Source: Methanolobus vulcani (lineage in GTDB: Archaea > Halobacteriota > Methanosarcinia > Methanosarcinales > Methanosarcinaceae). From it: a stretch of 64,000 bases of DNA. Each line of letters begins with the position of its first letter. Position 1 is the stretch's first letter. Positions 14,591 to 14,864 of this stretch are shown here, piece by piece. The notes under the pieces were generated by a model. That model saw only the letters and a list, made by a program, of their open reading frames with translations, was not told where the DNA came from and searched no databases. Made by a program: the position numbers and the translations under genes. The DNA lies in the NCBI RefSeq assembly GCF_006546655.1, contig NZ_VIAQ01000011.1, positions 1-64,000 on the forward strand, read 5' to 3'.

Positions 14591-14645
14591 TGTACCAATT
14601 TTCCATATTCCAGATAACATCGAACGAACAAAACAAATGATTGTA

Positions 14646-14836
14646 TGAAAAGAAGGATAATGCTGTCGTCTGACGCACTAACTCCGGGAGATCATCCTAT
14701 TGGAATTTCCGCTGTCCTTCCCAGTTTCCCTCGTGACAGGCTTTATCGCACTATCCAATGTAGCGTATTGAGGTTGTCTGTACAATCACAGATAGGCTCT
14801 GCCATGCTCTCATGCAAGGACCTAACAATACGCATG
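14646..14836 (-). ncRNA. Candidate ~190-nt structured non-coding RNA
   Basis: Read on the minus strand. Domain 1 is closed by an 8-bp helix (14826-14833 with 14763-14770) continued by 4 bp (14820-14823 with 14771-14774), enclosing two hairpins (14811-14816/14800-14806 and 14788-14792/14777-14781). Domain 2 is closed by a 9-bp helix with one G-U pair (14748-14756 with 14655-14663) and contains a CTGTC/GACAG stem (14735-14739/14712-14716). A T-rich stretch follows the last helix, and a TATA box sits about 26 nt before the first. Not recognised as RNase P, SRP RNA or a known riboswitch. It could also be a leader of the DUF167 gene. Confidence 0.6.
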
Positions 14837-14856
14837 TTTACCTACTACAGGAGAGA

Positions 14857-14864
14857 CATATAAA
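14857..14864 (-). promoter_or_regulatory. TATA box of the 14646-14836 RNA
   Basis: TTTATATG on the minus strand, centred about 26 nt upstream of the first base of the closing helix (14833-14836), the usual archaeal TATA to start distance. Confidence 0.55.

Follow-up and report, generated by a model that had tools for sequence, protein, structure and literature searches.

A two-hairpin RNA of Methanolobus vulcani, very probably an H/ACA guide of the HgcG/Pab40 lineage

RNA gene and its surroundings

The window, the analyzed stretch of 64 000 nucleotides of Methanolobus vulcani DNA, contains on its minus strand (14655-14835) the core of a gene encoding a structured RNA of ~180 nt. A TATA box (TTTATATG, 14857-14864, minus strand) can be read directly ~31 nt ahead of the first helix, and the last helix, 9 bp long, is immediately followed by a T-rich tract that reads UUCUUUU in the RNA. 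The same promoter element and T-rich end had been noticed in a sequence-only reading of the window, which proposed an unannotated structured RNA of ~190 nt with two large domains, and which suggested an Rfam search and a covariation analysis as checks. A TATA-like hexamer is present in 41 of the 50 aligned relatives as well, 20-34 nt (mostly 28-33) ahead of the first helix. Downstream of the RNA, a DUF167 gene starts after a gap of ~40-100 nt, depending on the choice of the start codon; the ~60 nt given previously falls within this range. The plus strand has an open reading frame (ORF) of 72 aa across the RNA (14645-14863).

Conservation and covariation

The RNA stretch was detected with blastn in 52 of 60 relatives (in 47 of the 49 good genomes), the matches spanning four of the five sampled families of the order. 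A covariance model (R1), built from Methanosarcinales sequences alone, detects the RNA in 180 of 295 genomes across the phylum, and the copy in the window scores 198 bits. One genome of family f7 (G060) has two full-length copies (C24:65086-65262 and C9:181876-182053). There was no match to the RNA in the plasmid collection. A degenerate pattern also matched contigs of Mesorhizobium (L146), Novosphingobium (L153) and Arthrobacter (L165), most likely by chance.

Covariation was tested on an alignment of 34 sequences (A2) and a structure of 47 pairs. This structure was drawn by hand with the alignment in view and then pair-counted, the automatic consensus fold of the plain alignment having been incomplete. 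The paired arms do covary. Two-sided changes occur at 25 of the 47 pairs, with 131 compensatory cells versus 38 in shuffled alignments, and none of 500 shuffles reached as high a count. Paired cells amount to 89.3% in the structure (81.1% after shuffling), and pairing falls to 35-41% once the partners are slid by 1-3 columns. As this way of drawing the structure biases the slide control somewhat toward it, the count of compensatory changes carries more weight. Taken by itself, the single sequence has a fold that is only mildly unusual (z = -1.75, with 11 of 200 shuffles folding equally well), and the real evidence for an RNA comes from comparison. Conservation and covariation thus bear out the RNA proposed from the sequence, at a length of ~180 nt.

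Architecture of the two hairpins

Defining traits of archaeal H/ACA guides are a K-turn above the pocket and, at a distance of 13-16 nt from the target, an ANA box (PMC2584109, PMC7991803). A kink-turn or kink-loop, with a three-nucleotide bulge and tandem G-A, is located in the upper stem, and the GA stem comprises 8-11 bp (PMC4652768). The RNA of the window consists of two hairpins (A and B) with these features. Each of them has a lower stem, an internal loop and an upper stem, with covariation in both hairpins, and in all 34 sequences both ANA boxes directly follow the lower stem. All features below are on the minus strand.

In the 5' to 3' direction, hairpin A is composed of the lower stem, the internal loop, the upper stem, tandem G-A, the bulge, the cap and, after the hairpin, UACA. 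Its lower stem (P1; helix 1, 96.3% paired) is formed by GCGUAUUG (14826-14833) and CAAUACGC (14763-14770). Covariation and letter counts define the upper (GA) stem, whose 5' strand (14810-14818) includes the G-A of the kink-turn and whose 3' strand is GAUUGUACAG (14778-14787). As counted on A2 with non-canonical pairs included, this stem has ~9 pairs. The three-nucleotide bulge of the first kink-turn is UGU (14788-14790) with an invariant last U, and UGA occupies alignment columns 55-57 in 34 of 34 sequences. The first ACA box (14759-14761) reads ACA in 30 of 34 sequences, AUA in three and AAA in one.

Hairpin B has the same motif of tandem G-A and bulge, and is followed by GACA. Its lower stem (helices 6-7, both strands covarying) is formed by GCCUGUCAC (14733-14741) and GUGCGUCAGAC (14668-14678). 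The GA stem of ~10 pairs (again counted on A2 with non-canonical pairs) consists of CUGGGAAGGA, which carries the kink-turn G-A (14715-14724; helix 8 covariation, GA 34/34), and the covarying GAUCUCCCGG (14684-14693). The bulge of the second kink-turn is GAU (14694-14696), with UGA at columns 158-160 in 34 of 34 sequences. Overall, the G-A letters of the kink-turns are present in 33 of 34 sequences in hairpin A and in all 34 in hairpin B, while the bulge UGA is found in all 34 in both. The second ACA box (14664-14666) is ACA in all 34 sequences.

In archaeal H/ACA guides the ACA box is expected to be single-stranded, in the 3' tail. In Methanosarcinaceae, this second box is located inside an internal loop instead of a free tail; the loop is closed off by a basal helix of 9 bp (helix 5), which is an extra element and covaries, formed by GGAUAGUGC (14748-14756) and GCAUUAUCC (14655-14663), the latter leading into the T-rich end; two-sided changes occur at six of the nine pairs. 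Both domains described in the sequence-only reading are present and its 9-bp helix stands, but the conserved part of the first helix, described there as 12 bp with one bulge, is 8 bp. The extra basal helix is reduced to about two G-C pairs in ANME-2 and Methanoperedens. Two genera of Methanosarcinaceae (G034 and G035) have a strongly diverged hairpin B (L044:3000-3182 and L049:2880-3059), in which kink-turn, GUUA guide and ACA box are all preserved.

Relationship to known H/ACA RNAs

The earlier reading gave the RNA no identity. The Rfam search that it suggested returns nothing in the window at the gathering threshold, and relaxing E to 10 yields nothing but chance matches (GP20-b and sroH); RF00064 (HgcG, also known as Pab40) does not match the window sequence at any reported threshold. 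However, orthologues of the RNA do match RF00064. One of them (L102) scores 98.4 bits versus the gathering score of 77, and sub-threshold matches are found on four others (L141, L092, L048 and L040). In L102, the R1 match (591-738, E = 1.8e-16), corresponding to hairpins II-III, lies inside the RF00064 match (586-852), and this overlap links hairpins A and B by homology to hairpins II and III of HgcG/Pab40. Since the window itself has no RF00064 match, its membership in the HgcG/Pab40 family is a case of transitive homology. Judged by these comparisons, the RNA is an H/ACA guide of the HgcG/Pab40 lineage. RNase P RNA was rejected as an identity, its gene being elsewhere (C18:42048-42430).

Pf7, a homologue of HgcG, has three hairpins (PMC2584109), and three are also readable in the structure line of RF00064. 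The window holds only hairpins II and III. Hairpin I with its own upstream TATA is present in ANME-2c, L092, L093 and L141. The TATA box of Methanolobus sits directly before hairpin II, and a search for the signature of hairpin I across the Methanolobus genome gave a single match, with two mismatches, which does not exceed the number in the control. With hairpin I absent, the TATA box at hairpin II and the orthology to HgcG, the RNA of the window is therefore a two-hairpin descendant of HgcG/Pab40.

Compared to HgcG/Pab40/Pf7 of Thermococcales, the kink-turns, the ACA boxes and the order of hairpins are kept; however, hairpin I is absent, the TATA box directly precedes hairpin II, and the sequence has diverged too far for the Rfam model to recognize it. 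The H/ACA guide HP1-HP2 of Haloferax volcanii (PMC2584109) also has two hairpins in the same order, and U2586 and U1915/U1917 are predicted targets of both RNAs. Grosjean et al. described Haloferax HP1 and HP2 with an intervening spacer (PMC2584109). In contrast, the hairpins of the window are adjacent, without a long spacer, and the 5' pocket of Methanosarcinales fits U2555 better than U2586. In genomes of the haloarchaeal type, hairpins A and B match R1 separately, with a spacer between them. The Haloferax HP1-HP2 guide is named sR-h45 in later work. Archaeoglobus fulgidus Afu4, compared by its description only, is likewise a multi-hairpin H/ACA RNA, in which the third motif is directed at L1970, the equivalent of U1915 (PMC4652768). 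The RNA of the window thus differs from known RNAs in the loss of hairpin I, the adjacency of the hairpins, the extra basal helix (Methanosarcinaceae) and the better fit to U2555; it is not a new kind of system.

Predicted targets in 23S rRNA

We scored 887 uridines against both pocket strands, averaging over the aligned guides and using complete 16S rRNA and 23S rRNA without its 5' part. E. coli positions were assigned via conserved motifs and the equivalences in PMC2584109.

The pocket of hairpin A is formed by the 5' guide UUAGGUC (14819-14825; GGUC in 33 of 34 sequences) and the 3' guide ACAACCU (14771-14777; AACC invariant). In 23S rRNA, the former complements GACC after U2586 and GCCUA after U2555, the latter GGGUU before U2586 and GGUUGU before U2555. 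For hairpin B, the 5' guide GAGGGAAA (14725-14732; AGGG in 33 of 34) pairs with 23S CCCUC of helix 69, and the 3' guide AGUUA (14679-14683; GUUA in 34 of 34) with UAAC before U1915. Among the 887 uridines, hairpin B of Methanosarcinales ranks U1915 first and U1917 fourth, and in the rest of the phylum these two uridines are first and second. Hairpin A ranks U2555, in the A-loop, first and U2586 fifth in Methanosarcinales; outside this order U2586 is first. The distance from the box, counted on the sequence, is 14 nt for U2586, 16 nt for U2555 and 16 nt for U1915, within the range of 13-16 nt.

Complementarity on both sides of the target uridine is thus found for both hairpins (U1915; U2555/U2586). 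Its significance, taken alone, is modest: the guide-target duplexes are short, and relative to shuffled rRNA the top target scores have P of about 0.02-0.2. The rRNA target segments hardly vary over the phylum. The published targets of the Haloferax RNA are U2586 and U1915/U1917 (PMC2584109, PMC4652768), and it is because of the agreement with these orthologue targets, not from the scores alone, that the assignment is persuasive. Hairpin B most likely guides modification of U1915 and U1917 in helix 69, and hairpin A most likely that of U2586 and/or U2555. It is possible, if rather less than probable, that in Methanosarcinales the RNA is an HgcG guide retargeted and structurally modified after the loss of hairpin I. 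According to this tentative scenario, hairpin A would have gained or kept U2555 as a strong second target, in addition to U2586 or in its place, and hairpin B would work with its ACA box locked in by the extra helix.

Alternative explanations

With the DUF167 gene so close, the sequence-only reading left two options: an RNA that stands alone or a long leader with a regulatory role. A cis-acting 5' leader of DUF167, riboswitch-like or controlled by L7Ae, would account for the finding that DUF167 follows on the same strand, ~30-240 nt downstream, in all but two of the examined Methanosarcinaceae and in the ANME-2c-type family f3. However, both the structure and the sequence of the RNA are also kept where DUF167 is not downstream: in f2 (ANME-2/HR1-type), in f5 (Methanoperedens), and in L030 and L049. 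There, the next gene is mostly convergent: CcmE-like in f2, synthase-like in most f5 loci and KaiC-like in L030 (names read off the starts of the proteins rather than obtained by a family search). In L042 and L049, other same-strand ORFs occur ~135-140 nt downstream of the RNA. Because the RNA is conserved without a downstream DUF167, the leader explanation fails on synteny. It would also leave two ACA boxes and two pockets unexplained. We therefore regard it as very unlikely and retain the stand-alone part of the earlier proposal. An equally improbable possibility, in our estimate, is an H/ACA-derived RNA that has kept the architecture while serving some other main task, such as guiding modification of tRNA or mRNA or sequestering L7Ae. 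The modest scores of the single rRNA duplexes and the enclosure of the second ACA box in a helix would fit such a role; however, the guides GGUC, AACC, AGGG and GUUA are nearly invariant and match the published targets of the orthologue.

The least credible explanation by far is a chance fold in non-functional spacer or an unannotated protein gene corresponding to the plus-strand ORF. The folding z-score of only -1.75 and the presence of the 72-aa ORF may be cited in its favor, but the conservation extends over the phylum with compensatory changes, and divergence follows the RNA pairing; covariation already refutes both variants. Moreover, the antisense ORFs of relatives are not constant in length, and all that they have in common is DALT-like words, which mirror GUUAGUG. 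The ORF on the plus strand is a by-product of the conserved RNA to which it lies antisense. Such ORFs recur (in the window, L038 and L046) with a common DALT word (MLSSDALTP, SPDALTPELH and SPDALTLLRS), because the conserved GUUAGUGCGUC is read backwards. They are at risk of being annotated as proteins.

Functional implications

With conservation, covarying architecture, kink-turns, ACA boxes, RF00064 orthology, rRNA complementarity and independence from DUF167 established by computation, we consider it very probable that the RNA is an H/ACA guide sRNA with a TATA-driven gene of its own and that it is orthologous to both HgcG/Pab40 (Pf7) and Haloferax HP1-HP2, of which it is the Methanosarcinales version with two hairpins; it probably guides pseudouridylation of 23S rRNA. 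Once transcribed from its TATA box, as we would expect, and by analogy with the known class, the RNA would bind L7Ae at each of its two kink-turns, and Cbf5-Nop10-Gar1 would assemble at the lower stem and ACA box of each hairpin. The internal loops would each hold 23S rRNA by the stretches that flank one unpaired uridine, and Cbf5, which is encoded in this Methanolobus genome, would isomerize the captured uridine to pseudouridine at the predicted sites.

The Rfam model is mostly silent in Methanosarcinales, in ANME and across much of the phylum; for these the RNA would supply a missing housekeeping guide. It would also unite the separately described HgcG/Pab40, Haloferax HP1-HP2 and Methanolobus RNAs as members of a single family in which the loss of a hairpin can be traced, and it predicts that methanogen ribosomes carry pseudouridines in helix 69, in the A-loop and in the peptidyl-transferase region.
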